Under the pieces are notes generated by a model. It was given only the letters and a program-made list of their open reading frames with translations, ran no database searches and had not been told where the DNA came from. A DNA stretch of 15,000 nucleotides from Bacteroidia bacterium (GTDB taxonomy: Bacteria > Bacteroidota > Bacteroidia > Bacteroidales > Dysgonomonadaceae). How positions within the stretch are numbered: the first letter of the stretch is position 1; every line of letters begins with the position of its first letter. Made by a program: the position numbers and the translations under genes. This document shows, piece by piece, positions 882 to 15,000 of the stretch. The DNA lies in contig BNXH01000031.1 in NCBI GenBank assembly GCA_025999435.1, positions 1 through 15,000 on the forward strand, written 5' to 3'.

Positions 882-902
882 TTACATACGCTGCGCTCCT
901 GT
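880..902 (+). repeat. Dispersed 23-bp repeat, copy A
   Basis: This 23-bp stretch begins AATTACATAC and ends TCCTGT. It matches 8953-8975 at 20 of 23 positions, differing only at positions 11, 14 and 17. Both copies are intergenic. The function is unknown; it looks like part of a small interspersed sequence. Confidence 0.55.
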
Positions 903-924
903 TACCGATGGTTGGCGCGAACTT

Positions 925-943
925 ACTGTTGACTGTTGACTGT
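925..943. repeat. Period-7 direct repeat ACTGTTG
   Basis: ACTGTTG is repeated 2.7 times (925-931, 932-938, 939-943), ten bases past the 3' end of the frameshifted DUF2007 gene. Related short ACT/AGT-rich repeats occur at 2696-2709 and 12286-12311, each also immediately beyond or between minus-strand genes. Confidence 0.7.
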
Positions 944-952
944 AGAGGTTTG

Positions 953-1251: not shown

Positions 1252-1262
1252 ACAAACTGAAT

Positions 1263-2018
1263 TTATTCTTCGTAAATCATTTTCTTTGTCATACCACCGT
1301 CTATTACGATGTTTTGTCCGTTGATGAAATTGTTTTCAGGATCGCAAAGGAAGAAGCAGGCACGTGTAATATCTTTTGGCACACCAACCCTGTTCGAAGG
1401 GTGCTGCTTGTGATCTTCCTCTCGTATTTCGTAGTGCCCGGTATCTATCCAGCCCGGACTGATACAATTTACCGTAATATTATATTTGCTTAGCGAGATA
1501 GCCAGAGCGTGTGTCAGCGAAACAATCCCACCCTTAGACGCTGCATAGGCTTCCGAGTCGGGCTCGCTCATCTGGTGACGGGTCGATGCCATATTGATAA
1601 TGCGTCCGTATTTGTTCAGGTCTTCGTTTTCGGAACGGAACTTTGCCAGCAACTTGGAGGTGATGAAAACCGACCGCAGATTTATATCCAATACATTTTC
1701 GAAATCTTCGACCGAGATGTCGAGAATATCTCCAAACCGGCTGATACCGACATTGTTTATAATAATATCGATATTTCCTTTCTTAACGAAAATGTCCGTG
1801 ACAACTTTTTCCAAAGCTGCTTTGTCGGCGACATCGATACGATAGAATGTACACCGGTAATCTTGTAGCTCTTTGCATAGCTGTTCTCCTGCGTCTTCGT
1901 CTGTATCGCAAAATACGACATCTGCCCCGTGTTGGCAAAAAGTAGTTACAATGGACCTGCCAATACCGTTGGCTCCACCTGTAACAAAAACGATTCTGTC
2001 TTGTATGTCTGTTTGCAT
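1263..2018 (-). CDS. Short-chain dehydrogenase/reductase (SDR family)
   Basis: This is a 251-aa classical SDR, an NAD(P)-dependent cytoplasmic oxidoreductase with a Rossmann fold. The nucleotide-binding motif TGGANGIG is at residues 13-20. An acidic residue, D38, closes the second strand, which in this family points to NAD(H) rather than NADP(H). NNVG at 88-91 replaces the usual NNAG. The catalytic tetrad is complete: N113, S145, Y158 and K162 (YAASK). The PGW segment after strand six is also present. The length is normal. The start ATG lies 6 bp past the lipB stop, so the two genes are almost certainly co-transcribed. The substrate cannot be inferred from sequence; sugar alcohols, hydroxy acids and 3-oxoacyl compounds are all possible. 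Being next to lipB does not make it FabG, as no ACP-binding evidence is visible. Confidence 0.9.
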   Translation of the reverse strand: MQTDIQDRIVFVTGGANGIGRSIVTTFCQHGADVVFCDTDEDAGEQLCKELQDYRCTFYRIDVADKAALEKVVTDIFVKKGNIDIIINNVGISRFGDILDISVEDFENVLDINLRSVFITSKLLAKFRSENEDLNKYGRIINMASTRHQMSEPDSEAYAASKGGIVSLTHALAISLSKYNITVNCISPGWIDTGHYEIREEDHKQHPSNRVGVPKDITRACFFLCDPENNFINGQNIVIDGGMTKKMIYEE

Positions 2019-2024
2019 AATTTC

Positions 2025-2690
2025 TTATTTATTCTCTATAAAAACTTCTTCAAATAATTCTCTCATTTTCAGTTTGGCTTCGTCCATATCTACGGGATGC
2101 CCTAACTCTTGTTGCAGTGAAGTTACGCCTTTATCGATGAAACCGCAAGGATTGATGAGGGAAAAATAAGAAAGATCAGTATTCAGGTTCAGCGCAAAGC
2201 CGTGCATAGTTACAAACCGGCTGCTGCGGACGCCGATTGCCGCAATTTTCCGGGTACGCGAAGGTACGGCTGTATCCAGCCACACACCGGCTGCACCCTC
2301 CAGCCTTTCGGCGTGAATAGTATATCCTTTTAAAAAACGGATAATAATATCCTCTAAATTATAGATGTACTGCCTGAGCCCGATACCGAACGTTTCGAGG
2401 TCGAAGATCGGATAGCCCACCAGTTGCCCGGGACCGTGATAGGTGACATCGCCTCCACGATCGATCTGGAAAAGTGAAACGCCCTTTTCTTTAAGCAGGG
2501 CTTCCTGAAAAAGAAGGTTCTCCTCTTTACCATGTTTTCCGATGGTGATAACATGAGGATGTTCGCAGAATAATAGCGTGTTTTTTGCATACGGCCCTTT
2601 ATCTTTCATATCCAGAGCTTCGGTGAATAGCTTTTGCTGATATTCCCAGGCATGCCCGTATTCTATGTTTTTCAGATCTTCGTATATCAT
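2025..2690 (-). CDS. lipB: Octanoyltransferase LipB
   Basis: LipB moves the octanoyl group from octanoyl-ACP to the lipoyl domains of 2-oxoacid dehydrogenases and the glycine-cleavage H protein, the first step of lipoate synthesis. The 221-aa product has the signature RGGDVTYHGPGQ at residues 78-89. It also has the family catalytic pair K148 (in RKIAAIGVR) and C182 (in NPCGF), 34 residues apart, the same spacing as K135 and C169 of the E. coli enzyme. The length is normal. It follows ruvC after a 93-bp repeat-filled gap and precedes the SDR gene by 6 bp. The ATG at 2690 gives the normal N-terminus. No lipA is visible in the window. Confidence 0.95.
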   Translation of the reverse strand: MIYEDLKNIEYGHAWEYQQKLFTEALDMKDKGPYAKNTLLFCEHPHVITIGKHGKEENLLFQEALLKEKGVSLFQIDRGGDVTYHGPGQLVGYPIFDLETFGIGLRQYIYNLEDIIIRFLKGYTIHAERLEGAAGVWLDTAVPSRTRKIAAIGVRSSRFVTMHGFALNLNTDLSYFSLINPCGFIDKGVTSLQQELGHPVDMDEAKLKMRELFEEVFIENK

Positions 2691-2695
2691 AATTT

Positions 2696-2709
2696 TAGTA
2701 GTTAGTAGT
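2696..2709. repeat. Period-7 direct repeat TAGTAGT
   Basis: Two exact copies of TAGTAGT (2696-2702 and 2703-2709) lie just upstream of the lipB start, where a ribosome-binding site would be expected. On the coding strand this reads ACTACTA twice. It may affect lipB translation if the copy number varies, but that is inference. Confidence 0.65.
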
Positions 2710-2748
2710 TGGCAGTATGAGAACTTACCGGTTTACTGGCATTTTTTA

Positions 2749-2786
2749 TTTTCAAATTTTCAAATTTCCGAATTTCCGAATTTTCA
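2749..2786. repeat. Period-8 direct repeats TTTTCAAA x2, TTTCCGAA x2
   Basis: The run is TTTTCAAA twice (2749-2756, 2757-2764), then TTTCCGAA twice (2765-2772, 2773-2780), then a further TTTTCA that overlaps the ruvC stop codon at 2784-2786. Two variants of one 8-mer, each duplicated, suggest stepwise slippage. It is related in composition to the 842-881 repeat. Confidence 0.75.
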
Positions 2787-3344
2787 TTTGACTTTTCCCG
2801 GATTTTTATTGATATAATCTTTCCAACCGGTAAACTTTTTGCCGGCGGACGGGTTGTTCGTTTGAAAGTAATGGCAAACCGCAGCTGCCAGTCCATCGGT
2901 TGCATCCATCTGGGGAAGCATATTCTCGTCCGGTATCTTCAGGAAATGTTGCAACATATAGGCGACCTGCTCTTTAGCCGCGCGTCCGTTTCCGGTAATC
3001 GACATCTTTATTTTCAGCGGAGCGTATTCAAAAATGGGAATATCGCGCGACAAAGCAGCCGCCATAGCTACCCCTTGCGCACGTCCCAACTTGAGCATAC
3101 TTTGCACATTCTTTCCGAAAAAGGGCGCTTCGATAGCCAATTCGTCGGGAAGATATTCATCGATCAGGCTGATGATACGTTCAAAAATCCGGCGAAGTTT
3201 CAAATAGTGATCGTCATATTTGCTTAGTTGCAATATACCCATTGCCAGCAATTCGGGTTTATTGTTGACTACTCGCAATACGCCGTACCCCATCACCTGT
3301 GTACCAGGGTCTATGCCAAGTATGATCCTTTCTTTTTCCAGCAT
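2784..3344 (-). CDS. ruvC: Holliday junction endonuclease RuvC
   Basis: RuvC cuts Holliday junctions symmetrically after RuvAB branch migration and so resolves recombination intermediates. The 186-aa protein has an RNase H-like fold with the full acidic set. D12 is in GIDPGTQ, E72 in AIEAPFFGK, and D147 and D150 in [12 protein letters not shown], with the same final spacing of three seen in the E. coli enzyme. The length is at the upper end of normal; the last 25 residues are a basic tail. The start ATG at 3344 follows the DUF4286 stop by one base, so translation is probably coupled. The 3' end overlaps a period-8 repeat tract. There is no ruvA or ruvB nearby, which is common in this phylum. 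Confidence 0.96.
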
Positions 3345-3345
3345 T

Positions 3346-3654
3346 CTATAATTCTATTTCTTCGAGCAGGGTTACAAAACCAAGAGCCTTGTCGCCGAAT
3401 CGTGAAGCCAGCTCTCCTTGCAAAATTTCTCCTTCGGAGGAAAACCAATGGTTGAGTGTTTCCACATTTTTTACGCTGAACTGAAGTGAGTAACTGCTGC
3501 CGCTTTCTTCATGCCGCGCATGTATGCGGGCAAAACGGGGTTCGTGGAGGAAGCCGCTGCTTGCAGCTCTTATGATGTATGTTTCTTTCATGAAATTGAT
3601 GTAATCGTTGAGCACATCATCTTCTACATGAAAGGTAGTATTAAAAATAATCAT
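3346..3654 (-). CDS. DUF4286 family protein
   Basis: This 102-aa cytoplasmic protein starts [12 protein letters not shown] and looks like a small alpha/beta barrel-type fold of the DUF4286 family, known mainly from Bacteroidota. No signal peptide or membrane segment is visible. Its function is unknown. It is the first gene of the minus-strand block, one base upstream of ruvC, and sits about 17 bp downstream of a TATTTTTG -7 box. The link with ruvC suggests co-expression, not necessarily a role in recombination. Confidence 0.85.
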
Positions 3655-3670
3655 TGTAAGTAATTTTATA

Positions 3671-3678
3671 CAAAAATA
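3671..3678 (-). promoter_or_regulatory. Candidate Bacteroidota -7 box for the DUF4286-ruvC-lipB unit
   Basis: On the minus strand this is TATTTTTG, an exact match to the Bacteroidota primary-sigma -7 consensus TAnnTTTG. It is 17 bp upstream of the DUF4286 start. I see no clear -33 TTTG at the expected spacing. The divergent 294-bp gap 3655-3948 also holds the promoter of the DUF2723 gene and otherwise nothing I can assign. Confidence 0.5.
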
Positions 3679-3875
3679 CGAAAAGTTTGGCGGTTTCTGT
3701 TATGGAATTTATCATTGTTGCAAGCTTTATCAAGTGTTGTTTGTCACCCTGACGCAGGAGGTATCTTGCATCACCTCAATCAAGAAATGGAAGGTACTTC
3801 CTTGAATTTTAAGAAGTTTTTGAATTTGACAGGCAAAAACAAAGCATCGTGAAACAAATATCTCAGTGTTTTAAC

Positions 3876-3883
3876 TATCTTTG
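3876..3883 (+). promoter_or_regulatory. Candidate Bacteroidota -7 box for the DUF2723 gene
   Basis: TATCTTTG matches TAnnTTTG exactly and is followed by C, giving the frequent TTTGC form. Transcription would begin near 3888-3890 and leave a leader of about 60 nt before ATG 3949. The -33 element is not obvious. Confidence 0.5.
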
Positions 3884-3948
3884 CACCCAAATATTTCAAA
3901 GAGATAACTTGTCATTCAAACAGAATTAATTCAATTACCTGTTTCATT

Positions 3949-6900
3949 ATGAAAAAATACAACCTGATAAACAATACTCTAGGCTGGTTTAGTTTTGCAG
4001 TAGCCGCGGTTGTTTACCTTATGACAATTGAACCGACAGCCAGTTTCTGGGATTGTGGAGAGTTCATTTCGTCAGCATATAAATTGGAGGTTGGACATCC
4101 GCCCGGCGCTCCGTTTTTTATGATTACAGGAAAGTTTTTCACGCTGTTTGCCTCCGATCCTACGCAAGTTGCATCGATGGTCAACAGTATGTCGGCTTTG
4201 CTCAGCGCCCTGACTATCTTATTCCTCTTCTGGACAATAACCCATCTGGCAAAGAAGCTGATATATACCGATTCTTCTAAAGAAATGACAATGGGACAAC
4301 TTATCGCTATCATGGGTAGCGGTTTGGTAGGAGCCCTTACATATACATTTACCGATACGTTCTGGTTTTCGGCTGTCGAAGGTGAGGTTTACGCCTACTC
4401 TTCTATGTTTACGGCCTTAGTATTCTGGTTGATACTGAAATGGGAAAACCGCGCCGGTCAGCCGGGTTCTGACAAATGGTTGGTGCTGATAGCTTATGCC
4501 ATGGGCTTGTCTATCGGTGTCCATTTGCTTAACTTGCTTTGTATACCGGCAATTGTCTTGGTCTATTACTTCAAAAAAGCAAAAGACGTAACATGGAAAG
4601 GCTTATTGCTTGCTTTAGCCGGATCTGTTTTCCTGATCGTGGTATTGATGTACGGTATCATTCCGGGCTTTACACAAGTGGGAGGCTGGTTCGAAATGTT
4701 CTTTGTGAATAGCTTAGGCTTCTCTTACAATTCGGGAGCATTGACCTATATATTAATAATGGTTATATCTATCGTATGGGCATTATATGAAACCTTGTCG
4801 AAAAAAGGAAATATGACCCGTGCCAAAATAGCGACTGCTGTATCTCTTGTTTTAAGTGGAGCTGCTATTATTGGTTCGAATGCCTTCTTGTGGGTGTTGC
4901 TTATTGCAGGTCTCTTCGTATTTTTATTCAAATATAAAGGTATTACGCCGAGACTGTTGAATACAATCGTTTTGTGTCTGATGGTTATTTTGATAGGGTA
5001 CTCATCTTTTGCTCTTATTCCTATCCGTTCCATAGCCAATACGCCGATGGATCAGAATTCGCCTGAAAATGTATTTACGCTGGGCAGTTACCTCAACCGT
5101 GAACAGTATGGCGACAGACCATTATTCTATGGCAGGACATACGCTTCAACGGAGAAGAGAGACCCTTCGACAGGACGTTTAGCCCCTCCTGAAAGCGAAA
5201 AGCTAAGCTACGACAAGGTGGTAAAAAAATCGCCGGACGAAAAAGACAAATATGTAGTGGTTAGCACTATCCCTACATACGGAGTGAACAACACCATGTT
5301 GCTTCCCCGTATGTATTCTACCGAACAAAGACATCTGCTGGGCTATCAGATATGGGCGGATATTAAAGATACATCAGTGCCTCCTACAATGTTTGAGAAC
5401 CTGAAATTCTTCTTTAGCTATCAGCTGGACTTTATGTACTTCCGCTACTTTATGTGGAACTTTTCGGGTCGCCAAAACGATGTACCGGCGAACGGAGGCC
5501 TTAGCAACGGCAACTGGATTACCGGAATCGGATTTGTAGACGAATTGCTCGGACGTGGTCCTCAGAATAATCTTCCTCCTGATATTCTCGAAAATAAAGG
5601 GCACAATGTGTATTATATGTTGCCGCTGATACTTGGTATTCTCGGCATTGTGTACCAGTTGACAAGAGGGAAAAAAGGTGAACAGCAGTTCCTTGTTACC
5701 TTCATGCTATTCTTTATGACAGGTCTTGCCATTATTATATATCTGAATCAGCAACCGTTCGAGCCGCGCGAGCGTGACTACGCCTATGCAGGATCGTTCT
5801 ACGCGTTCTGTATATGGATAGGCTTCGGTGTGGCATTCCTATGGAACCTGTTCAGCAAGAAATTGCCAAGCACTGTATCTGCGGCTCTTGCTACAGGACT
5901 GGCTTTGATAATTCCTGTGCAAATGGCAAGCCAGAACTGGGACGATCACGATCGCTCGGACAGATATACTATGCGCGACTTTGGTGAAAATTACCTGCGT
6001 GGTTGCGAGCCTAACAGTATTCTGTTTACAATGGGCGACAACGATACATTCCCGTTGTGGTATTCCCAGGAAGTAGAGGGTTTCCGTACAGATGTGCGCG
6101 TGAGCAACCTAAGCTACCTGCAAACAGACTGGTATGTAGACCAAATGCGCCGTCAGGCATATGACTCATCGCCTCTGCCTATTTCGTGGACAGAAGACCG
6201 TTATCAGGGATCAAAAGGTCAATCGGCATACGTATTGTCGAAGAGCGATATAGAAAATGCTGTAAAAAGAGAGTATCAAAACTCTAAAGATGGAGCTTCT
6301 TTCCTCAATCGGATCAACTTCTCGGATTTTTACGACACGGCTGTGTATAAAGATACATTGATGTTGGACGATGCATTGGAAATACTGAAAACAAAAGATA
6401 ATTACGCACCTCACAATCCGTTCGGAATAGAGAAAGGTGTTATTCTTCCGGGAAATGTATTGAAAATGCCTATCGATCAATCGAAAGTAGATTGGAAAGC
6501 ATTGGGTACAAGTCCGGCTTCTGAACTATTGTTCGACCTGAGCGCTAACAAATCGGGCGGTATATACCGACAGGAGATTATGATTCTGGAAATGTTGAAT
6601 AATATCAATAAGGATGACTGGAAACGTCCTATCTATTACGCTCTGACCATTGGCGAACCACCGTTGAAACTGGATAATCATTCTACTCAGGAAGGTATTA
6701 TATATCGCATTACTCCGGGTAAAATAGACAGTACAGGTGTAAACACTGACGTTATGTTCGATAATCTGGTCAACAAATACAAGTGGGGTGGAATAGAGAA
6801 GCCAAAAGTATATCTGGATGAAAACAACCTGAGAATGTGCCGCACTTTCCGCGTGATATTCGGTGATCTTATCACAGCTCTTTTACGCGAAGGCAAGAAT

Positions 6901-7425
6901 GATAAGGCATTGATTGCTCTCGACAGATGTATAGAAGTGCTTCCCGGAAATACGATTCCGCGTAGTGGCGAGTCGGTTGGATATGCGGATGCATATTATC
7001 AGCTGGGACACCCTGAGAAAGCACAGAAGATAATAGATGAAATTATGTACCGTACAGAAGGTGCCCTGAATTGGTACTTGAGTATGAAACAGAATGATAT
7101 GGTAAATTCGAGTGCAGATATCAGGGGCTACTTCGATACGGAAGTGCAAGTATTGGATACCTATCAGCGCTACGATAGAGCTAAATATAAAGAACTTCTT
7201 AATACGTTGACATTGCGTGCCGAGACATTCTTACGTAACGGTGTTAGCTTCAATCCTAGAAATCATCCTCTCGATTACCTGATGCGTATTTCGATGAGAG
7301 GATTTTATCTGGCCGGAGAAGATTCTGTTATTGAAAAAGAAGAGCATGCAAATGCTGAACGTATAGGCGAATTGATGCAAAAATATGCACCTGAACTTTT
7401 AAGAAGATATTCACAACCAAATTAA
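3949..7425 (+). CDS. DUF2723 GT-C-type membrane protein (putative protein/glycan glycosyltransferase)
   Basis: This is a 1158-aa polytopic inner-membrane protein. After a first membrane helix (residues 11-27) comes the DUF2723 signature PTASFWDCGEF (29-39) and GHPPGAP (49-55). The acidic pair D35/E38 in the first external loop is what GT-C glycosyltransferases use for catalysis. About ten further hydrophobic segments follow, up to about residue 660. The remainder is a large soluble region with NYLRGCEPNSILFTMGDNDT, typical of bacterial members, and a TPR-like end (about 980-1040: KALIALDRCIEV, YYQLGHPEKAQKIIDEI). Human TMEM260, a protein O-mannosyltransferase, carries the same domain, so transfer of a lipid-linked sugar to secreted proteins or glycans is plausible but not proven here. 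The gene has its own -7 box and is followed by a polysaccharide deacetylase, which fits an envelope role. Confidence 0.88.
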   Translation: MKKYNLINNTLGWFSFAVAAVVYLMTIEPTASFWDCGEFISSAYKLEVGHPPGAPFFMITGKFFTLFASDPTQVASMVNSMSALLSALTILFLFWTITHLAKKLIYTDSSKEMTMGQLIAIMGSGLVGALTYTFTDTFWFSAVEGEVYAYSSMFTALVFWLILKWENRAGQPGSDKWLVLIAYAMGLSIGVHLLNLLCIPAIVLVYYFKKAKDVTWKGLLLALAGSVFLIVVLMYGIIPGFTQVGGWFEMFFVNSLGFSYNSGALTYILIMVISIVWALYETLSKKGNMTRAKIATAVSLVLSGAAIIGSNAFLWVLLIAGLFVFLFKYKGITPRLLNTIVLCLMVILIGYSSFALIPIRSIANTPMDQNSPENVFTLGSYLNREQYGDRPLFYGRTYASTEKRDPSTGRLAPPESEKLSYDKVVKKSPDEKDKYVVVSTIPTYGVNNTMLLPRMYSTEQRHLLGYQIWADIKDTSVPPTMFENLKFFFSYQLDFMYFRYFMWNFSGRQNDVPANGGLSNGNWITGIGFVDELLGRGPQNNLPPDILENKGHNVYYMLPLILGILGIVYQLTRGKKGEQQFLVTFMLFFMTGLAIIIYLNQQPFEPRERDYAYAGSFYAFCIWIGFGVAFLWNLFSKKLPSTVSAALATGLALIIPVQMASQNWDDHDRSDRYTMRDFGENYLRGCEPNSILFTMGDNDTFPLWYSQEVEGFRTDVRVSNLSYLQTDWYVDQMRRQAYDSSPLPISWTEDRYQGSKGQSAYVLSKSDIENAVKREYQNSKDGASFLNRINFSDFYDTAVYKDTLMLDDALEILKTKDNYAPHNPFGIEKGVILPGNVLKMPIDQSKVDWKALGTSPASELLFDLSANKSGGIYRQEIMILEMLNNINKDDWKRPIYYALTIGEPPLKLDNHSTQEGIIYRITPGKIDSTGVNTDVMFDNLVNKYKWGGIEKPKVYLDENNLRMCRTFRVIFGDLITALLREGKNDKALIALDRCIEVLPGNTIPRSGESVGYADAYYQLGHPEKAQKIIDEIMYRTEGALNWYLSMKQNDMVNSSADIRGYFDTEVQVLDTYQRYDRAKYKELLNTLTLRAETFLRNGVSFNPRNHPLDYLMRISMRGFYLAGEDSVIEKEEHANAERIGELMQKYAPELLRRYSQPN

Positions 7426-7434
7426 AACATACGG

Positions 7435-7463
7435 GCAGGCGGATTTCTCTATTATTCGCCTGC
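7435..7463 (+). terminator. Hairpin between DUF2723 and deacetylase genes (weak terminator or attenuator)
   Basis: The stem GCAGGCG (7435-7441) pairs with CGCCTGC (7457-7463) and can be extended by a G-T and an A-T pair. The tail TTCTCATGTTGTT is only moderately T-rich, and the next gene starts 14 bp later. Partial termination or 3'-end protection seems likelier than a full stop. Confidence 0.45.
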
Positions 7464-7476
7464 TTCTCATGTTGTT

Positions 7477-8088
7477 ATGCTAATAGAACGACCCCCTAAA
7501 CTATACCGCTGGCTCTTTCCCGGAGCCCTTTGGCGGAAACCTGTTAAAGGCAAGAAAACAATCTATCTGACATTTGATGATGGCCCTATCCCCGAGATAA
7601 CCCCTTGGGTGTTAGATTTATTGGATAAATATGACATTAAGGCTACTTTCTTTTGCGTAGGCGATAATGTACGCAAGCATCCCGATATATACCAAATGCT
7701 ACTCGACAGAGGGCATCGTGTAGGTAATCATACTTTCAACCATATACAAGGAATACGAACTTTTTCGAAAAGATATTTGGCAAACACCAAACTTGCTTCG
7801 GAATATATCGATTCAGACCTGTTTCGTCCGCCTCACGGACATATGCGCGTTTCTCAGTTTTGGGTGCTGAGCCGTTATTATAAAATAGTTATGTGGGATG
7901 TCGTGACCCGTGACTATAGTAAGTTGATGAATCCGGATGAAGTATTCAACAACGTGAATAAATATGCACGAGATGGCTCGGTTATAGTCTTTCACGACTC
8001 GTTGAAGGCCGAAACAAATATGAAAGAAGCTTTACCCCGTAGTATCGATTGGCTTTTGGGACAGGGTTATACTTTCAGTCTGCTGTAA
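7477..8088 (+). CDS. Polysaccharide deacetylase, NodB-homology (CE4) family
   Basis: The 203-aa protein is essentially one NodB domain, a metal-dependent amidase that removes acetyl groups from N-acetylated sugars such as peptidoglycan or other glycans. All five motifs are visible: TFDDGP (32-37, D34 and D35); HTFNH (85-89, metal ligands H85 and H89); RPPHG (117-121, with H where most members have Y); WDVVTRD (140-146); and VIVFHDS with H173. There is no evident signal peptide or membrane anchor, so it may be cytoplasmic, or it may be exported by another route. It lies 51 bp downstream of the DUF2723 gene on the same strand. The residue change in motif 3 occurs in some relatives and need not abolish activity. 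The substrate is unknown. Confidence 0.92.
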   Translation: MLIERPPKLYRWLFPGALWRKPVKGKKTIYLTFDDGPIPEITPWVLDLLDKYDIKATFFCVGDNVRKHPDIYQMLLDRGHRVGNHTFNHIQGIRTFSKRYLANTKLASEYIDSDLFRPPHGHMRVSQFWVLSRYYKIVMWDVVTRDYSKLMNPDEVFNNVNKYARDGSVIVFHDSLKAETNMKEALPRSIDWLLGQGYTFSLL

Positions 8089-8128
8089 AGACATTCTTAT
8101 TCTCTACCTTATTTCTTCAAAATTTCCA

Positions 8129-8136
8129 TATCTTTA
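8129..8136 (+). promoter_or_regulatory. Possible -7 box before the small hypothetical gene
   Basis: TATCTTTA is one base from TAnnTTTG and lies 19 bp before the ATG at 8156. It is weak evidence. The small gene could instead be read through from the deacetylase, which ends 67 bp upstream of it. Confidence 0.3.
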
Positions 8137-8155
8137 GCATATTAAAACTAAAGCT

Positions 8156-8407
8156 ATGGGGCAAAACTATTCGAATATCTCGTATAAGAAAACATATACC
8201 GGTGATTATATAAAATCCTATAAAAGCGGGCACGTATACATATACGAGCCTCCAACGCAGGAGAAGAAGCAGTCGAAAGATCCGGTTTTGGCAGAAGGCC
8301 GCCGGAGAACACCTCGTCCGGAGGCACAAAAAGAAGAACTCCCCCCTTATTCGATCTTGAAATATAATTTATGCCAATCAGTAGTTAATGCTATTCCTGT
8401 TGGATGA
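8156..8407 (+). CDS. Small hypothetical protein, Tyr/Lys-rich N-terminus
   Basis: This 83-residue frame begins MGQNYSNISYKKTYTGDYIK. It has a Tyr-rich first third, a charged Pro/Glu/Arg-rich middle (EGRRRTPRPEAQKEELPP) and a short hydrophobic end. There is no signal peptide or membrane helix. I recognise no family. In favour of a real gene: it is in the same direction as its neighbours, has a plausible -7 box, and its codon use in the first 60 codons resembles them. Against: it is short and has low-complexity composition. The TGA is at 8405-8407, only four bases before the inverted repeat of the 8412-8948 element. The frame is therefore closed before the element and was not cut by it, unless the insertion also altered the flank. 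Confidence 0.45.
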   Translation: MGQNYSNISYKKTYTGDYIKSYKSGHVYIYEPPTQEKKQSKDPVLAEGRRRTPRPEAQKEELPPYSILKYNLCQSVVNAIPVG

Positions 8408-8411
8408 AAAC

Positions 8412-8449
8412 GTTCGGTTATTTTCTTCTGCGCGCAATCAAAGATTGCT
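8412..8449 (+). repeat. Left terminal inverted repeat (38 bp)
   Basis: This begins GTTCGGTTATTTTCTTCTGC and is the inverse of 8911-8948 with 36 of 38 positions identical. Its inner part is a small palindrome, GCAATC-AAA-GATTGC. Confidence 0.85.
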
Positions 8450-8658
8450 AGCGTCCCTTTTGCCCAAAGCCGCAAAAGGAACCAAAAAGGCTTTTGCGCC
8501 CCCGCTTCAACGTCCGACCCATAACGGACTTAAAGGCTAAACAAAAAAACTCGCTCCGGGTTTTGTTTAATACGAATCATTTGATAAGCTCAGACACGTT
8601 TTTGTTTTTAACGCCTTTTTCGTCCTATGGGTACCCCGTACTTGAAGCTAACGGCGCA

Positions 8659-8697
8659 GCTGACGCACGACAAGGCAACCGCTTGTCGTGCGTCAGC
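8659..8697. repeat. Perfect 16-bp stem-loop inside the element
   Basis: GCTGACGCACGACAAG at 8659-8674 is exactly inverted at 8682-8697, with a 7-base loop (GCAACCG). It is the strongest of the internal hairpins and is not followed by a T-run, so it is not a standard terminator. Confidence 0.85.
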
Positions 8698-8910
8698 CTC
8701 CCGCGCATTAGTTCCGCAGGCGGGGAACCCACACGGTGCAGGCGGCGTAGAAAGGGACGGGGCGATAGCCCGTTCGTCCCTTTCAGACGGCAAACCGGTT
8801 GTGGGTCGTCGAGGGACGGAGCGCTAGCTTTTTGCTTACTTTTGGGCAATGCCAAAAGTAAGGACAAGCCCGGCAGGGCGCGGCAGTAATGATCATATGT
8901 TGAGAATATA

Positions 8911-8948
8911 AGCAATCTGTGATTGCGCGCAGAAGAAAATAATCGAAC
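8911..8948 (-). repeat. Right terminal inverted repeat (38 bp)
   Basis: Inverted partner of 8412-8449, with two mismatches. It contains the palindrome GCAATC-TGT-GATTGC. The dispersed 23-bp repeat copy B begins four bases beyond its outer edge. Confidence 0.85.
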
Positions 8949-8952
8949 TATT

Positions 8953-8975
8953 AATTACATACACTTCGTTCCTGT
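8953..8975 (+). repeat. Dispersed 23-bp repeat, copy B
   Basis: This matches 880-902 at 20 of 23 positions, in the same orientation. It directly follows the right end of the 8412-8948 element. The surrounding A/T-rich sequence (TATTAATTA..GATTATTAATT) is partly self-complementary. Confidence 0.55.
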
Positions 8976-9020
8976 GATTATTAATTCAACAACTGATTCA
9001 CATAATTTATATAAGAAAGT

Positions 9021-9047
9021 TGTAACAAACATTCAGGCTGTTCCGTC
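9021..9047 (+). promoter_or_regulatory. Candidate ECF-type promoter of the DUF4252-sigma operon
   Basis: TGTAAC (9021-9026), a 17-bp spacer, then CGTC (9044-9047). AAC in the -35 box and CGT in the -10 box with about this spacing are the hallmark of promoters used by many ECF sigma factors. Transcription would start near 9053-9056 and leave a leader of about 65 nt before the first DUF4252 gene. It is the only such pair I noticed in the operon, and it fits autoregulation by the sigma factor encoded four genes in. The assignment is by pattern only. Confidence 0.45.
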
Positions 9048-9120
9048 TTAATAATTGAACGCAAGATGATAGCGCACATCGGACGATTTTAAATTATTAA
9101 TTAAGACAAAAAATACAGCT

Positions 9121-9588
9121 ATGAAAAAATATTTACTTTGCTTAATTTTAGCATTAGCCATCGGGCAAATGAGTTATGCCCAAAGTGTGGAAAGGTTTTT
9201 GAAAAATGTTTCGAATACAGAAAATATCGATAAGGTGAAAATCGGCCGCTTTATGATGAGTCTGGGTAAAATGTTTGGAGGCGTGGGTAATACACCGGTT
9301 GCACGAGGTATTCATTCATTGGAGGTTTATGATCTTTCGGGCTGCGACGCGAGAGTAAAACAGGATTTTTTAAATCAAATAAACAGCCTGAAAGATGGCG
9401 ACGGATACGAAACATTGATCATGGTTAAAGATAAAGGAGACAATGTGCGTATCATGATGAAAAAGAAGAAAGATGTAATCAGCGATTTGGTGATATTATG
9501 TATGGATGATAAAGAGCCTACAATCGTAAAGCTTTCGGGGAAAATAAAAGAGAAAGATGTCTCCGGGCTGGTAGACAAATACAATTAA
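9121..9588 (+). CDS. Secreted DUF4252 protein 1
   Basis: A 155-aa precursor with a classic signal peptide (MKKYLLCLILALAIGQMSYA, cleavage likely before Q21). There is no lipobox Cys at the cleavage site, so it should be a soluble periplasmic or secreted protein. The mature part is helical at first and ends in the block shared with the other three copies: YETL at 96-99, VKDKGDNVRI, a hydrophobic strand, and IVKLSGKI at 135-142, then a short amphipathic helix. This matches DUF4252, a family of unknown function from Bacteroidota. Its N-terminal half resembles copy 4 (11705-12172) more than copies 2 and 3. It is the first gene after the candidate ECF promoter. The stop is 39 bp before the next start. 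Confidence 0.85.
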   Translation: MKKYLLCLILALAIGQMSYAQSVERFLKNVSNTENIDKVKIGRFMMSLGKMFGGVGNTPVARGIHSLEVYDLSGCDARVKQDFLNQINSLKDGDGYETLIMVKDKGDNVRIMMKKKKDVISDLVILCMDDKEPTIVKLSGKIKEKDVSGLVDKYN

Positions 9589-9627
9589 TTAAAATATTAT
9601 AAGTAAACACAATCACAATCAGACATT

Positions 9628-10137
9628 ATGAAAAGAATTATTCTCTCTCTAGTACTAGTATTAGCCTTTGGGCAAGTGGCTATGGCTCAGGATCTGGATA
9701 AATTAATAGCCGAATTGGCTAAGGTAGAAGGAGTAACGCACCAGATAGTAGACCGTTCTACGCTTGATGCTGCAGTGGGAGCCGGAATGCAGGCGGATTC
9801 GACAGGAGCAGCCTCTTCTAAAATACCCGGGTTTATGAAAAAACTCGAACTGATAGAAGTGGTGGCAGCAGAAAACGTGCAGCCGGAACTTAAAAACAGA
9901 TTTCTGGAAGAACTGAACAAATTTGAAGACGGAAGCGGATACGAAACTTTACTGACTGTAAAGGACGGAGAAGATAACGTGCGTATTCTGGCTCAACGCG
10001 AAAACGGGGTGGTTACAGCGGTAATCATATTTGCAATAGATGAAGAAGATGCGGCAATCGTAAAGATGGTTGGGAAATTCGATCAGTCAGACCTGACAGA
10101 TATACTTAACGAACAGGAAAAGAATAAAAACAAATAA
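9628..10137 (+). CDS. Secreted DUF4252 protein 2
   Basis: A 169-aa precursor; the signal peptide ends AMA|QD at 20/21. The mature protein has DLDKLIAELAKVEG near its start, closely matching copy 3 (DLNKLMDNLAKVEG). An Ala/Gly/Ser-rich insert at about 48-65 is absent from the others. The family block is YETL 105-108, VKDGEDNVRI, then IVKMVGKF 144-151. The C-terminus is a charged Lys/Asn tail. It contains no cysteine. It lies between copies 1 and 3 on the same transcript, 13 bp before copy 3. The function is unknown, and a duplicate origin with copy 3 is likely. Confidence 0.85.
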   Translation: MKRIILSLVLVLAFGQVAMAQDLDKLIAELAKVEGVTHQIVDRSTLDAAVGAGMQADSTGAASSKIPGFMKKLELIEVVAAENVQPELKNRFLEELNKFEDGSGYETLLTVKDGEDNVRILAQRENGVVTAVIIFAIDEEDAAIVKMVGKFDQSDLTDILNEQEKNKNK

Positions 10138-10150
10138 AAAGGAAAAAATC

Positions 10151-10633
10151 ATGAAAAAGATATTCTTCAGTTTAGTATTACTTTTCGTCGGACAAGTTAT
10201 TTATGCTCAGGATCTGAACAAGTTGATGGACAACCTGGCCAAAGTAGAAGGTGCACAAAGGCAAGTGATGGATAAGGCTATGTTGAGTCAATCGATACCT
10301 GAATCGCAAAAGGATAAGATGCCTGACTTTATGAGCAAAGCAGACTCTGTGGTAGCCGTTATCGTACAAAATTGCCCTCAAGATGTAAATGACAAAATAC
10401 AGGAAGGGATAACCGGAGCTGAAACGAGCGGTATTTACGAACCGTTGGTAACAGTGAAAAAGGAAAACAACAGGGTTTCCATCTTGTCGGGTAAGGGCGA
10501 AGATGAGAATAAAGATGTTTACATCTGCGTAGCCGGCGGCAATGCTGTGGTTTTTGTGAAGTTGAGCGGCAAATTTACGATAGATGATTTAGCAAATATC
10601 GTTAAGGAGCAGCAAAAAGATAATGATAACTGA
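10151..10633 (+). CDS. Secreted DUF4252 protein 3
   Basis: A 160-aa precursor; the signal peptide ends IYA|QD at 19/20. The start is supported by an AAAGGA Shine-Dalgarno-like run about 8 bases upstream, unusually clear for this window. The family block is YEPL 96-99, a shortened VKKENNRVSIL segment, and FVKLSGKF 135-142. It is the most divergent copy in the middle strand region. The final TGA overlaps the sigma-factor ATG by one base (TGATG), so sigma synthesis is probably coupled to translation of this gene. Two cysteines (in QNCPQ and YICVA) could form a disulfide; this is speculative. Confidence 0.85.
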   Translation: MKKIFFSLVLLFVGQVIYAQDLNKLMDNLAKVEGAQRQVMDKAMLSQSIPESQKDKMPDFMSKADSVVAVIVQNCPQDVNDKIQEGITGAETSGIYEPLVTVKKENNRVSILSGKGEDENKDVYICVAGGNAVVFVKLSGKFTIDDLANIVKEQQKDNDN

Positions 10634-11130
10634 TGGATGCGGAAACTTTTAAAAAAGTATTCATCCCATATCATCAGAAATTATACAGAATTGCTTACCG
10701 GATAGTGCAGGATGCCGCCAATGCCGAAGACATAGTGCAAGATACATTTATTAAACTTTGGAACAAGCGTGACGAGATGGAAAACGTAGATAATACCGAA
10801 GCTTTCGCTATTATCATCTTGCGAAACACGAGCCTCGACCATTTGCGGAAAACAAAGAACGATCGTTATACGGACTATGACACGGATATGCCCGAAACGG
10901 TTTCCTTGTCGAAACAAATAGAACTGCAGGACGAAGCCGAAAAAATAAAGTATCTGATAAACAAATTACCGGATCAGCAACGGCAGGTGATGATGATGAA
11001 ACATTGGGACGATTATTCGGACGAGGAAATCGAACAGGCAACAGGCCTGAGCGCGGGAAACATAAGGGTTATATTATCAAGAGCCCGGAAAACTATTCGG
11101 GAACAATATATTAAAATCGGACAGCGATGA
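10633..11130 (+). CDS. ECF-family RNA polymerase sigma factor
   Basis: A 165-aa sigma-70-family factor with only regions 2 and 4, the ECF layout. Region 2 (about 8-75) contains AEDIVQDTFIKLW (31-43), the core-binding and -10 recognition helix. Region 4 (about 112-157) has LPDQQRQVMMMKHW followed by the helix-turn-helix DEEIEQATGLSAGNIRVIL and SRARKTIRE. It would direct RNA polymerase to a specific promoter set, probably including its own operon (candidate at 9021-9047). It overlaps the preceding DUF4252 gene by 1 base and the next gene by 4 (ATGA), typical of sigma/anti-sigma pairs held at a fixed ratio. No C-terminal extension is present. The regulon is unknown. Confidence 0.93.
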   Translation: MDAETFKKVFIPYHQKLYRIAYRIVQDAANAEDIVQDTFIKLWNKRDEMENVDNTEAFAIIILRNTSLDHLRKTKNDRYTDYDTDMPETVSLSKQIELQDEAEKIKYLINKLPDQQRQVMMMKHWDDYSDEEIEQATGLSAGNIRVILSRARKTIREQYIKIGQR

Positions 11131-11708
11131 AAACAAATGATATAAAAATATTACTCGAAGCCTTCTACAACGGGGAGACCAGTGCCGGTGAAGACCGTAT
11201 TTTGACGGATTACTTCAAAGGAGAAGACGTAGCAGAAGAGCTGAAGGATGAACAAACAATATTTCTGGCCATGTATGAGGCAGAGCCGGTGGATGTGCCT
11301 TTATCTTTGGAATCGGAGCTGAACAACTTGGTAGATGAGCTAGCCGGAGAAGAGAGTAAAGAGGCATCGAAAGTAAAACTGAAACCTCAGGATAATCGCA
11401 GGATAATGTGGACATGGGTCGCCAGTGCTGTAGCGGGTGTGGCCATATTAATATCGGCGGGAATATTTTTCAATAGACCGGCAACAGTAATTCCCGATGA
11501 GCCTGTGGCGGCACGGCAACAACCGGACGAGGCAGAAATGTCGGAAGCAGACAAGCAGGCGGTAAAGGAAGCAGAGGAAGCTCTTATCCTGCTGTCCAGT
11601 AAATTTAACAAGGGAGTGAATCAACTGGCTGTTGTTTCATCCAATATCGAAAAAACTAATGAAATACTAAATAAAGCTTTCAATCGGAAAAAAGATAAAG
11701 AATCATGA
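11127..11708 (+). CDS. Single-pass anti-sigma-like membrane protein
   Basis: A 193-aa protein with an acidic cytoplasmic N-terminus of about 90 residues, one membrane helix (about 94-115, WTWVASAVAGVAILISAGIFF) and a periplasmic tail. In the tail, residues 142-187 look like a long amphipathic helix or coiled coil (KEAEEALILLSSKF). The position right after an ECF sigma gene, with ATGA overlaps at both ends, and the topology argue for an anti-sigma factor that holds the sigma at the inner membrane. It contains no cysteine, so it is not a zinc-binding (ZAS) anti-sigma. I see no FecR or other known sensor domain in the tail. The early motif LLEAFYNGETSAGEDRILTD resembles the N-terminus of many Bacteroidota anti-sigma-like proteins. 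Inhibition of the sigma is inferred, not shown. Confidence 0.75.
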   Translation: MKTNDIKILLEAFYNGETSAGEDRILTDYFKGEDVAEELKDEQTIFLAMYEAEPVDVPLSLESELNNLVDELAGEESKEASKVKLKPQDNRRIMWTWVASAVAGVAILISAGIFFNRPATVIPDEPVAARQQPDEAEMSEADKQAVKEAEEALILLSSKFNKGVNQLAVVSSNIEKTNEILNKAFNRKKDKES

Positions 11709-12172
11709 AAATAAAAGCATTACTAATAGCGATGGCCATTATGATCGGTGCAATCACCGTTCAGGCACAAGATCAGATGTTCGATAAGTTTTCGAAGAAC
11801 AATGATATCTCTACGGTCTTTATTTCTAAGGCACTCCTTTCTATGGCCGGGAATATGAATATGGGCGGAGCCAATATCAAAAGCTTATCTAACAAGCTGG
11901 AAAGAATGGAAATATACTCCAGTGAAAACAAAAATGCAACGGCGCTAATGAAAGCCGAAGCAGGGAAGATTTCAGCAGATAAGTCGTTCGAGGAGCTGAT
12001 GACCGTAAAGGATAAAGACGATCATATCACTTTCTATGCCAAAAGAAACAAAGGAGACAGTTTTAAGGATCTCATAATGGTTATAAACGATCCTAACGAA
12101 TGTACTATAATCCGTATTGTAGGGACGTTCACGATGGAAGATATACAAGGCGTAATGGGCGGCAAAAAATAG
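11705..12172 (+). CDS. Secreted DUF4252 protein 4
   Basis: A 155-aa precursor with signal peptide MKIKALLIAMAIMIGAITVQA, cleavage likely before Q22. The mature region reads FDKFSKNNDISTVFISKALLS, then the family block FEEL 95-98, VKDKDDHITFY and IIRIVGTF 135-142. It is closest to copy 1 in the N-terminal half. The ATG overlaps the anti-sigma-like stop by 4 bases, so this copy is translationally tied to the regulator rather than to the other three. That placement makes it the best candidate for a periplasmic partner of the anti-sigma tail. This is inference. It is the last gene of the operon. Confidence 0.85.
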   Translation: MKIKALLIAMAIMIGAITVQAQDQMFDKFSKNNDISTVFISKALLSMAGNMNMGGANIKSLSNKLERMEIYSSENKNATALMKAEAGKISADKSFEELMTVKDKDDHITFYAKRNKGDSFKDLIMVINDPNECTIIRIVGTFTMEDIQGVMGGKK

Positions 12173-12176
12173 GAAT

Positions 12177-12220
12177 TATATAGTTTCAGATATGGCAAAT
12201 GTCATATCTGAGACTATATA
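12177..12220 (+). terminator. Long A/T-rich hairpin at the operon end
   Basis: An 18-bp stem (12177-12194 with 12203-12220) has one G-T wobble and an 8-base loop (GCAAATGT). It begins 5 bp after the stop of the last DUF4252 gene. No T-run follows, so it may act as a 3'-end stabiliser or as a bidirectional terminator between this operon and the convergent MATE gene. Confidence 0.55.
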
Positions 12221-12285
12221 TCATTACTTGAAAAACAAACTTTATAAGATATGCGAATATATCGATGGGGGCAAACTAATAGCCT

Positions 12286-12311
12286 GCTAACTGTTTACTG
12301 CTAACTGTTTA
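12286..12311. repeat. Period-14 direct repeat GCTAACTGTTTACT
   Basis: GCTAACTGTTTACT (12286-12299) is followed by a near-complete second copy (12300-12311), ending 5 bp from the MATE stop codon. It is similar in wording to the ACTGTTG repeat at 925-943. Confidence 0.7.
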
Positions 12312-12316
12312 TTAAC

Positions 12317-13690
12317 CTACCCTATTTTCGGCCTTTGCTTTTTTACCCGTCGATATACTACTGAGAACCACAGAGGCAGAATAATTCCTTTACACACCGT
12401 AGAAATAGCGATAGCCCACCATACACCTACTATGCCCATGTGTGAAGCAAGGAAGTATGCCAACGGGATACGCAAGGCATTAAATGTAATACTGATGATA
12501 GCCGGTTCTATCGTTCGCCCTATACCATTGAACATACCCTGTGTCGTCAGCTCGAACATCATAAATATTTGTACAAGCCCCATCACAAAAAGATATTGGG
12601 CTCCTGCCTTCATCGCGTTTTCTTCGGGAACAATAATACCGAATATCTGCGCGCCAAACAGGATAAAACTGATACTGACAATTACGCCCAAAGTAAGCAT
12701 CACCCTGATAGTATAGAAATATGCCTTCTTCCCTCTTTCCAGCTTATTAGCAGCATAATTCTGCGCTACAAATGCACTGAGAGCTGTAGAAAATCCTTGC
12801 GAAGTATTCCACGTAACAGCCTCTATCTGTCCCCCTGTAGTCTGAGACATAAGCCCCAGATGCCCGCCATGAATTGACGCTACACGAGCCAGATTCATAT
12901 TGATGACGGCATATAAGGAATTCATCAGCGAAACGGGAGCGCCCAAGAAGAAAATGCGTTTGAGATATATAGCCTTTGGCTTTATAAAAAACGAGAAATT
13001 ACCCAATATGCGACTTCCATATTTGATCTGATAGAAGAACAGCAGGAATACAAATAACTGCGCTACGACGGTTCCTATCGCCGCTCCATGCAATCCTAAT
13101 CCCATAGTAAACATCAATATCGGATCGAGAATCATGTTCAACACCAATCCGGCAGCATTGTTTTTGAAAGGAACCATACTACGTCCTCCCCCATTATATA
13201 TTCCGGTAAAGTTATAAGACAGGAACTGAAAAGGCAGGCTGATAGTAAGTATCCGCAGATATAAAACAGCATCGGCAGTTATACCGGCTTCAAGTTTAAA
13301 AAATGAAAGTATCTGATTGGCAAAAATAAATAATATGGAGACCCACGCCACAGCCAGGATCATTGATATTGTAGTGGAATGTGAGGCATAGATCGCCGCG
13401 CGTTTCATCTTCTTTGCACCGATCGACTGCCCTACGGCAACTTCCGCGCCTATCATGGCCAGATATGCCACCGAAGAAGTCAGCCATAAAAGCATACCGA
13501 TAGCTCCGATGGCAGCTTCCGATTTGGTTGCTATTTCGGGATGAGATGCTGTGCCCAGCCTACCCACCCACGACATAGCCATCAGTGTATATGCCATTTG
13601 CAGGAAGCTGGTTCCCATCAGAGGAAGCGCAAGTTTTATAAGGGTTGAGAATATATTCCCTTCCGTAAGATTATGTATACCTTGTTTCAT
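12317..13690 (-). CDS. MATE-family multidrug/metabolite transporter
   Basis: A 457-aa integral membrane protein with about twelve hydrophobic helices in two similar halves, the usual MATE length and layout. The N-terminus IFSTLIKLALPLMGTSFLQM and the later GAEVAVGQSIGAKKMKRA segment are characteristic of the family, as is the matching second-half FVAQNYAANKLERGKKA. MATE proteins export cationic drugs or metabolites in exchange for H+ or Na+; the coupling ion and substrate cannot be read here. The ATG at 13690 lies 30 bp after the stop of the YihY-family gene, so the two are probably co-transcribed from a promoter beyond the right edge. It converges on the DUF4252 operon. Confidence 0.93.
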   Translation of the reverse strand: MKQGIHNLTEGNIFSTLIKLALPLMGTSFLQMAYTLMAMSWVGRLGTASHPEIATKSEAAIGAIGMLLWLTSSVAYLAMIGAEVAVGQSIGAKKMKRAAIYASHSTTISMILAVAWVSILFIFANQILSFFKLEAGITADAVLYLRILTISLPFQFLSYNFTGIYNGGGRSMVPFKNNAAGLVLNMILDPILMFTMGLGLHGAAIGTVVAQLFVFLLFFYQIKYGSRILGNFSFFIKPKAIYLKRIFFLGAPVSLMNSLYAVINMNLARVASIHGGHLGLMSQTTGGQIEAVTWNTSQGFSTALSAFVAQNYAANKLERGKKAYFYTIRVMLTLGVIVSISFILFGAQIFGIIVPEENAMKAGAQYLFVMGLVQIFMMFELTTQGMFNGIGRTIEPAIISITFNALRIPLAYFLASHMGIVGVWWAIAISTVCKGIILPLWFSVVYRRVKKQRPKIG

Positions 13691-13720
13691 TATTTTTGTT
13701 GAAGGCTAAGATACATCGGG

Positions 13721-15000
13721 TTATAAATCTTTTAATAATTTTCTCCCGCTTTCCAGCTCGCTGAAATTTTTGATTTTCAGAATTGTATCCCACTCACTGT
13801 TAAATTCAATATCAGTATCGATCATAAAATCTTCCGAGCCATGCCGGTCTATTTTCTCAAACATGTAGGCTACTGTTATATGACCAATATCGAGAGAGGG
13901 TATGTATGCAGGTACCAATGTATTTTCGGAAGGGGTTTCGACCAATAAACCAACCTCTTCTAAAAAAAAGAGGGTATCACTTGTCAGCTTGGTAGGTATC
14001 TTATAATGCTCCGACAATTCGTCGGCAGTATAAGGAATATATCCTTTTTCGAACCGTTTCACGATAAGTGTCATTATCATCAGTGTTACAAAATCTTTGT
14101 AACGACGGCTTATATTCGAAGTTTCTTGTTCGAAGCTAAATTTATTCACATTCTGGAAGGCAAACGACAATTGCACTCCGAAAAGAACGAAAAACCATGT
14201 CAGCTGTAACCATAAGAGCAATAACGGGAGGGCGGCGAAGCTACCGTAAATAGCATTATATTTCGAAATCCATATCTGTCCACCAATATATAGCATCTGA
14301 AATACCTGAAAACAGACACCCGTAAAAATGCCGCCTAACAGGGCACTGCTAAATCGTACTTTTGTATTCGGGATGTATACATAGAGGATAGTAAATAAAA
14401 GAATTGTTATCAGGAAAGGCACAACTTCCATGAAAGGGCCTAAGACCAATCCCAGCAAATATTGTTGTTCGGCGGTTGTACTCAGTAAAAGATTCACCCC
14501 TGCGTTACATATCAGGAATACAGGTGCGATAATTATCAAAGCCAGATAATCGGTAAACATGCGAAAATATGTTCGTCCGGCTTTTATCTGCCATATTTTA
14601 TTGAAATTATCTTCAATATTCGATAATAGATTAATAACAGTATAAAGTAACAAGATAATACCTATACCCAGAAAAATTCCACCCTGCGCATATTCAATAG
14701 ATTTATCGATAAAAGCCGTTGCCTTATTCAATATTTCTTCCTGTCCGGCAAAATAGCTGAACAACTGACTCTTCACAATATTCTGAAACCCGAAGCCTCT
14801 GGCAATAGCGAACAATACGGCTAACCCAGGGACAATAGACAATAAGGTACTATATGTAAGAGCTGAAGCACGTGTAAAAAGCTGCCCCCCATCAATACTT
14901 CGTATAGCAAGGATAAAAGCCTTTACAATATTATAAAAACCAATCTTCCGGGAAGAGCGGTCTTTCTTATTTATCCGCCAAATATCATAAGTGAGGAAGC
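13721..15000 (-). CDS. YihY/BrkB-family membrane protein with winged-helix-like tail (5' end outside window)
   Basis: The frame is open from the right edge (first full codon at 14998) to the stop at 13721, giving 425 residues. It includes upstream residues FLTYDIWRINKKDRSSRKIG and RASALTYSTLLSIVPGLAVLFA, so the TTG at 14842 is internal and not a start. Six membrane helices with the family motifs ALTYSTLLSIVPGLA, YIPNTKVRFSSALLGG and YGSFAALPLLLLWLQ identify the YihY/BrkB family, once misassigned as RNase BN. After the last helix, about 130 cytoplasmic residues contain YTADELSEHYKIPTKLTSDT and FLEEVGLLVE. This looks like a winged helix-turn-helix of the Rrf2 type. Such tails are frequent in Bacteroidota members. 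The function is unknown. Confidence 0.88.
   Translation of the reverse strand, partial: FLTYDIWRINKKDRSSRKIGFYNIVKAFILAIRSIDGGQLFTRASALTYSTLLSIVPGLAVLFAIARGFGFQNIVKSQLFSYFAGQEEILNKATAFIDKSIEYAQGGIFLGIGIILLLYTVINLLSNIEDNFNKIWQIKAGRTYFRMFTDYLALIIIAPVFLICNAGVNLLLSTTAEQQYLLGLVLGPFMEVVPFLITILLFTILYVYIPNTKVRFSSALLGGIFTGVCFQVFQMLYIGGQIWISKYNAIYGSFAALPLLLLWLQLTWFFVLFGVQLSFAFQNVNKFSFEQETSNISRRYKDFVTLMIMTLIVKRFEKGYIPYTADELSEHYKIPTKLTSDTLFFLEEVGLLVETPSENTLVPAYIPSLDIGHITVAYMFEKIDRHGSEDFMIDTDIEFNSEWDTILKIKNFSELESGRKLLKDL

Follow-up and report, generated by a model that had tools for sequence, protein, structure and literature searches.

What are four secreted proteins of the DUF4252 family doing around a single extracytoplasmic function (ECF) sigma factor and its anti-sigma-like partner? 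The genes in question lie on the forward strand of a 15,000-nucleotide stretch of DNA, hereafter the window, from a Bacteroidia bacterium of the family Dysgonomonadaceae (assembly GCA_025999435.1, contig BNXH01000031.1, positions 1 to 15,000). A preliminary description of the window had proposed an envelope-stress or contact-signalling module in which the DUF4252 proteins are either the sensors or the main output. Our reading, to which we assign a probability of roughly 0.7, is that the ECF sigma factor switches on its own operon and has the secreted DUF4252 proteins as its dedicated output. Dedicated output is the most likely role because DUF4252 genes are linked to this sigma factor, a shared promoter precedes the operons, the same promoter stands before some unlinked DUF4252 genes, and a residue of the sigma factor matches a base of the promoter. 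At the level of sequence comparison each of these four points is supported, and the placement of DUF4252 as a dedicated regulon output appears well supported.

The six open reading frames (ORFs) stand in a row at 9121-12172 in the order DUF4252, DUF4252, DUF4252, ECF sigma factor, anti-sigma-like protein, DUF4252, with gaps of 39 and 13 bases followed by overlaps of 1, 4 and 4 bases (Table 1). Coordinates and family matches agree with the order and overlaps described earlier. The four DUF4252 proteins, D1 to D4, all exceed the PF14060 cut-off of 23.9 bits. They are related to the NF058626 (GFO_1090) family and are not members of it, scoring 32.7, 28.9, 27.1 and 80.3 bits against a cut-off of 150. 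No Pfam match besides DUF4252 was found in D1-D4 at E values up to 0.1, including any CpxP/Spy family domain; the proteins could nevertheless function like CpxP/Spy chaperones. The sigma gene carries sigma-70 regions 2 and 4 (PF04542, PF08281), both above cut-off, and belongs to NF058625 (the GFO_1088 family, or sigma_PG0214; cut-off 130 bits). For the fifth gene product neither Pfam nor NCBIfam gave a match that reached its cut-off. The A|Q signal cleavage site proposed for all four DUF4252 proteins is consistent with an AQ pair starting at residue 19-21 behind a hydrophobic N-terminus, as judged by sequence without a signal-peptide predictor. A conserved C-terminal block, given earlier as YETL..VKD..VKLSGKF, holds as a loose consensus only, although several residues are truly shared: outside the N-terminus the invariant columns are E97, L99, V102, K103, G140 and D146 (D1 numbering). 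The window genome as assembled (2.2 Mb, 51% complete) has no DUF4252 match beyond D1-D4.

Table 1. Coordinates of the operon, its promoter and the adjoining hairpin in the window.
Feature	Position	Strand	Remarks
ECF-type promoter	9021..9047	+	-35 TGTAAC 9021-9026; -10 CGTC 9044-9047 (TGTAAC-N17-CGTC)
D1, secreted DUF4252	9121..9588	+	PF14060 68.8 bits; on the tree with the outer upstream copy (up2) of genus loci
D2, secreted DUF4252, upstream type	9628..10137	+	PF14060 57.3 bits; nearest tree neighbor up1, the inner upstream copy
D3, secreted DUF4252, upstream type, diverged	10151..10633	+	PF14060 40.7 bits; closest on the tree to up1
ECF sigma factor, GFO_1088/PG0214 family	10633..11130	+	NF058625 188.8 bits; V146 in region-4 recognition helix
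Anti-sigma-like protein	11127..11708	+	helical cytoplasmic N-terminus, one membrane segment, helical extracytoplasmic tail
D4, secreted DUF4252, downstream type (common-core position)	11705..12172	+	PF14060 92.6 bits; model pLDDT 78.3
Stable hairpin directly 3' of D4	12177..12220	+	20 pairs; folding energy -27.6 kcal/mol; z -8.0

DUF4252 was present in 15 of 149 genomes sampled from the class, 52 of 61 from the family and 49 of 119 from the order, the window genome being counted in each sample. After repeats were dropped (the G000 rows and, in the order list, the G107 rows), the three samples yielded 140 DUF4252 clusters, taken with about 5 kb on either side where the contig allowed, and six extra loci were chosen for the sigma gene alone. 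A gene for this sigma family lies on the same strand within 2.5 kb in 115 of 141 clusters, the window included, which exceeds what chance would give. The linkage that the preliminary description had proposed for comparison across Bacteroidales is thus borne out in the sampled Bacteroidales and Bacteroidia, and the DUF4252 genes are not scattered independently of the sigma gene, the pattern it had named as contrary to its proposal. The core layout is a sigma gene, a gap of mostly 400-700 bases with the anti-sigma gene inside, and then one DUF4252 gene. At least one further DUF4252 gene stands upstream in 40 of the 121 sigma loci, so that the picture of four partners as a departure from ordinary sigma/anti-sigma loci was overstated: extra upstream copies are a frequent addition to the core. 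Three upstream copies occur only in the window among the 121, and a short piece from another genome (L303, G330) also has three DUF4252 ORFs following the promoter. A scan of named genomes for the sigma factor gave 10 loci, seven titled Dysgonomonas and three titled Prevotella (two of them metagenome-assembled genomes, MAGs), and the nearest sigma, 95% identical to that of the window, is at a locus titled Prevotella (L282). The window genome itself belongs to Dysgonomonas or close to it. One family sigma gene, at L180, is followed by an anti-sigma-like protein of 718 residues, against a median of 185.

The operon is preceded by an ECF promoter, TGTAACAAACATTCAGGCTGTTCCGTC at 9021-9047. The window has no other match to TGTAACN{16,17}CGTC, against a mean of 0.03 by chance; the coordinate at which the preliminary description had begun the locus coincides with the first base of this promoter. 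Among relatives, TGT[AC]A[CT]-N16/17-CGTC was found within 300 bases upstream of 88 of the 117 operons with at least 150 bases of upstream sequence. Fifty shuffles gave a mean of 0.12 and at most 1, and control ORFs in the same loci gave 1 of 529; this lone positive, at L178, is anti-sigma-like and has DUF4252 as its immediate downstream neighbor. The form of the motif used initially, GTAA[CT], had found 74 of 117 operons and 2 of 529 controls. The pattern is fitted on these same loci because it was widened to TGT[AC]A[CT] after the misses were inspected, and the shuffles and controls were run with the same final pattern. A strict form, TGTAACA-N15/16-CGTCTT, has 20 matches in 25 genomes of the window's genus against 6 for a reversed-pattern control. 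Thirteen of these stand at this operon (including L298, the window's own site, L300 and L303, whose pieces end before the sigma gene), one at an unlinked DUF4252 gene (L311) and six elsewhere. Locus L282 retains the promoter region with 95% identity over 43 bases, while part of the intervening stretch is missing there. A sigma-70 promoter scan of 8900-12400 returned 13 sites where 9.9 were expected. Two strict matches precede other secreted proteins: at L292 one of 398 residues with a DUF4252 score of 13 bits, not clearly DUF4252 and possibly a further promoter target, and at L302, 31 bases downstream, one of 241 residues rich in GSGN-type repeats, which presumably resembles DUF2807.

Some DUF4252 genes that stand apart from the sigma factor carry the same promoter. 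The unlinked set comprises the remaining 26 of the 141 clusters, with at least 150 bases of upstream sequence required for scoring, and a genome was scored as lacking the sigma factor when it held no family match at E 1e-35. The promoter lies directly upstream in eight unlinked clusters (L173, L217, L220, L226, L230, L263, L265 and L267), and each of these eight comes from a genome with the sigma factor at another place. The counts are 8 of 14 in sigma-bearing genomes and 0 of 9 in genomes without it. Two clusters with less than 150 bases upstream (L192, L222) were left out of the nine, and L264 was left out of the 14, being probably linked because the contig end cuts it just before an anti-sigma gene. 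The promoter before the operon and before some unlinked DUF4252 genes favors the second option of the preliminary description, the main output. In one genus (g105) three unlinked DUF4252 genes without the promoter (L239, L260, L262) lie 2.7-3.9 kb from a different ECF sigma-like ORF, which scores about 54 bits and is read from the opposite strand.

The promoter also appears to be matched to the sigma factor. Residue 146 belongs to the recognition helix of region 4 and corresponds in alignment to the VRSR serine of a solved sigma-H; we take its equivalent in E. coli sigma-E to be S172. The 74 TGTA operons all have V, I or A at this residue and the 14 TGTC operons all have Q, K or S, which makes it the sigma column that best separates the fourth base of the -35 element, with a match in 88 of 88 operons. 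Of 13 genomes examined that have two such loci, 8 combine TGTCAC at whichever locus has upstream DUF4252 with TGTAAC at its counterpart; for the remaining five one or both -35 sites were not found.

Several observations weigh against this reading. Among the 117 operons, 29 lack the motif as written, some with near variants by eye and others with nothing evident, and the loose motif shows no enrichment in the window genome, with 12 matches where a reversed control gave 25. Six of the 14 unlinked DUF4252 genes in sigma-bearing genomes have no promoter. A possible counter-example is L178, where an anti-sigma-like gene with an ECF-type motif in front is followed directly by a DUF4252 gene in a genome (G062) with no sigma of the GFO_1088/PG0214 family at E 1e-35; counting this pair turns 0 of 9 into 1 of 9. 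Fisher p values, which ignore relatedness among loci, are 0.007 for 8 of 14 against 0 of 9 and 0.040 against 1 of 9, and become 0.017 and 0.074 when L263, at a contig edge, is removed. Completeness is only 65-86% for three genomes in the group counted as sigma-free (G183, G164, G169). The match between residue 146 and the -35 base, a strong pattern, rests on few events because only about three changes on the tree are needed, too few for a test; independent pairs number one on starred branches and three on all, and significance is not attainable.

The DUF4252 copies themselves are ordered by their place in the operon. On the family tree upstream and downstream proteins separate by one change (unlinked ones not counted), and the copies sort by operon position and do not look hypervariable, although the N-terminal halves of D1-D4 have diverged. 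This is a quick tree, and no small starred set contains D2, D3 or D4. Relatives have a single inner upstream copy, to which D2 and D3 both lie closest, a further sign that the contrast drawn between four partners and ordinary loci was overstated. At L282 the promoter is followed by a gene fusing the start of D2 with the body of D3, and D1 was not found there; either copy number would have changed by recombination or the MAG may be misassembled. The best structural neighbors of the D4 model recurrently include DcrB, EagT6/SciW, PA94, PsbP and Mog1, which we group, as an assumption, as Mog1p/PsbP-like small proteins; the match is weak. A sequence comparison of D4 with solved structures gave a best E value of 0.046 and was not taken up.

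The anti-sigma-like protein, first described as cysteine-free and single-pass, has 193 residues, no cysteine and one hydrophobic segment near residue 97 by hydropathy, with an N-terminus of about residues 1-80, a membrane segment at about 97-115 and a tail of about 78 residues holding a conserved block at about 148-163. It follows the sigma gene directly with a 4-base overlap and combines an N-terminal domain with one membrane helix, features of an anti-sigma factor that would inhibit the sigma factor. Its model is confident in the N-terminal domain (predicted local distance difference test score, pLDDT, about 90 up to residue 50) and of low confidence beyond about residue 80, and a fold search with the full model, poor past that point, gave no useful match. 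Among the columns invariant in 38 close homologues are F13, Y14, G16, Y29, F30, A149, A152, N161 and G163. Zinc-binding anti-sigma factors carry a His/Cys zinc motif, and the cysteine-free window protein falls outside this class; at 193 residues with a tail of about 78 and no long periplasmic part, it also falls outside the Dma/Reo-type dual-membrane class. Of 121 genes that follow the sigma gene, 109 encode one hydrophobic segment and 12 none, and 57 encode no cysteine.

In the model we favor, the membrane-bound anti-sigma factor would hold the sigma factor until an envelope signal, as the class of system suggests, frees it. The sigma factor would then read TGTAAC-N17-CGTC at 9021-9047 and transcribe the whole operon, including itself and its inhibitor, and in some relatives would also transcribe DUF4252 genes elsewhere that bear the same promoter. 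The DUF4252 proteins would be exported by way of their A|Q signal peptides and may protect the envelope from within the periplasm or from the outer membrane. The weak fold resemblance hints that they might do so by binding or chaperoning ligands that are hydrophobic or lipid-linked.

The DUF4252 proteins may act only as output or may also report to the anti-sigma tail. Under one alternative, to which we give a little less than an even chance, they are pure effectors, the tail senses alone or by proteolysis, and extra copies raise the dose or diversify ligands. An output in the course of diversifying is what one seems to see in the unlinked DUF4252 genes that share the promoter and in the split of upstream and downstream types by a single tree change, and two loci (L183, L269) have a sigma and an anti-sigma gene without a recognizable DUF4252 gene. 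It sits less well with the co-divergence of tail and DUF4252, measured over 95 loci as a partial rank correlation of divergences with the sigma factor removed and with bootstrap ranges: tail and downstream DUF4252 correlate at 0.39 (0.26-0.50), comparable to sigma factor and anti-sigma N-domain with the tail removed (0.37, 0.27-0.45) and above tail and its own N-domain (0.17, 0.06-0.28). Upstream DUF4252 and tail correlate at 0.33 (0.12-0.54) over 31 loci. These values suggest, more tentatively, that the DUF4252 proteins are also periplasmic partners of the tail, which they would bind so as to damp the system, or from which damaged envelope components would draw them off and let the system fire; CpxP-like feedback is a model for damping by a periplasmic partner. 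This is compatible with a dedicated output, and several paralogues would widen the range of signals. The helical block kept in the tail, the 4-base overlap of the anti-sigma gene with D4 and the sigma-free pairing at L178 point the same way. Against it, the intervals are wide and some overlap, smaller subsets give no clear signal, N-domain and DUF4252 also correlate (0.19, 0.07-0.29), fast-evolving exported parts can co-vary without contact, and in the 21 loci with two downstream copies the order reverses, with 0.27 (-0.04 to 0.51) for tail and DUF4252 and 0.41 for N-domain and tail. Feedback on the tail is a lead from sequence divergence, and the sensor role in the preliminary description is conjectural.

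Linkage could also exist without regulation, the promoter serving another ECF sigma factor while DUF4252 merely travels with the pair. The window genome does have nine further NF058625 matches, all below cut-off, one of these other ECF sigma genes, on C9, has GTAAC-N16-CGTC about 65 bases upstream, and at L178 the motif occurs even though no sigma gene of this family was found in that genome. We nonetheless consider this improbable, in view of the -35 base that tracks residue 146 of the adjacent sigma factor, the different -35 elements at the two loci of 8 of 13 two-locus genomes, and a promoter that mostly tracks the presence of this sigma factor. Less probable still is the contact or interbacterial signalling that the preliminary description had entertained, for which we found no evidence: secreted paralogues with diverged N-terminal halves would suit it, but Pfam, NCBIfam and PADLOC gave no toxin, immunity or defence match (none of the six operon proteins matched in PADLOC), and the copies sort by position on the tree without a hypervariable look. 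More speculatively, and on balance doubtful, the DUF4252 proteins may be Mog1p/PsbP-like, sigma-dedicated periplasmic sentinels, guarding hydrophobic parts of the envelope and signalling to the tail whether they are occupied, with paralogues diversified at the two operon ends and parallel systems in one genome insulated by V146-TGTAAC versus Q146-TGTCAC.

The hairpin 3' of D4 sits between D4 and a convergent gene at 12317-13690, has no T run after it and is possibly the 3' end of the transcript; Rfam at its gathering threshold gave no match anywhere in the window. On the other side, a dispersed element resembling a miniature inverted-repeat transposable element occupies 8412-8948, with 38-base terminal inverted repeats that are 95% complementary, and stops about 70 bases 5' of the operon -35. 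The stretch 8440-8890 has 10 further matches in the window genome, several at contig ends, and parts of it also match another Dysgonomonas (L284).

Related loci appear in several published studies. In Porphyromonas gingivalis, PG_0214-0218 and PG_0985-0987 are jointly raised in an FLL361 table (PMC10101095), PG0985-0987, termed an operon, are down in two sphingolipid-related mutants (PMC9045371), PG_0987 is among vesicle proteins raised in biofilm (PMC5378342), and a 2007 study noted PG0216-0218 as being among the proteins found specifically in Bacteroidales or in groups close to them (PMC1887533). These loci share the sigma family and the tag order sigma, hypothetical/anti-sigma, DUF4252 with the window, which differs in its three added upstream DUF4252 genes; PG_0217 and PG_0218 are listed as hypothetical proteins. 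The nearest published layout found is that of Prevotella bivia PREBIDRAFT_RS05890-05910, whose members fall together (PMC11410844) and whose order, as read from the locus tags, is DUF4252, hypothetical, sigma, DUF4252, DUF4252, with two DUF4252 genes listed on the far side of the sigma gene and not three. The cirYZ-spy operon of Phocaeicola vulgatus, strongly induced in colitis, likewise joins an ECF sigma/anti-sigma pair to a co-transcribed envelope protein, but its output is a Spy-like chaperone (PMC13114119). EcfO-Reo and Das-Dma of Bacteroides/Phocaeicola, also ECF pairs of Bacteroidota, have been linked with envelope stress or with vesicles and have exported outputs such as NigD. They differ in that Reo and Dma are said to extend as far as the outer membrane, whereas the window tail has about 78 residues. 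Our literature search, with most subscription journals outside it, found no treatment of DUF4252 function or promoter in the text available; DUF4252 occurs there as an annotation in expression tables, as a spacer-target list entry or in a short remark.

The type of locus is thus already known in Bacteroidota, and the window adds a case with an enlarged output set. New are the linkage count, the promoter, its sharing by unlinked DUF4252 genes and the match of residue 146 with the -35 element. Because the promoter marks even some unlinked genes, DUF4252, an exported family of Bacteroidota, now has a candidate regulator, and the pairing of residue 146 with a promoter base is a convenient starting point for studying how parallel ECF systems stay apart.

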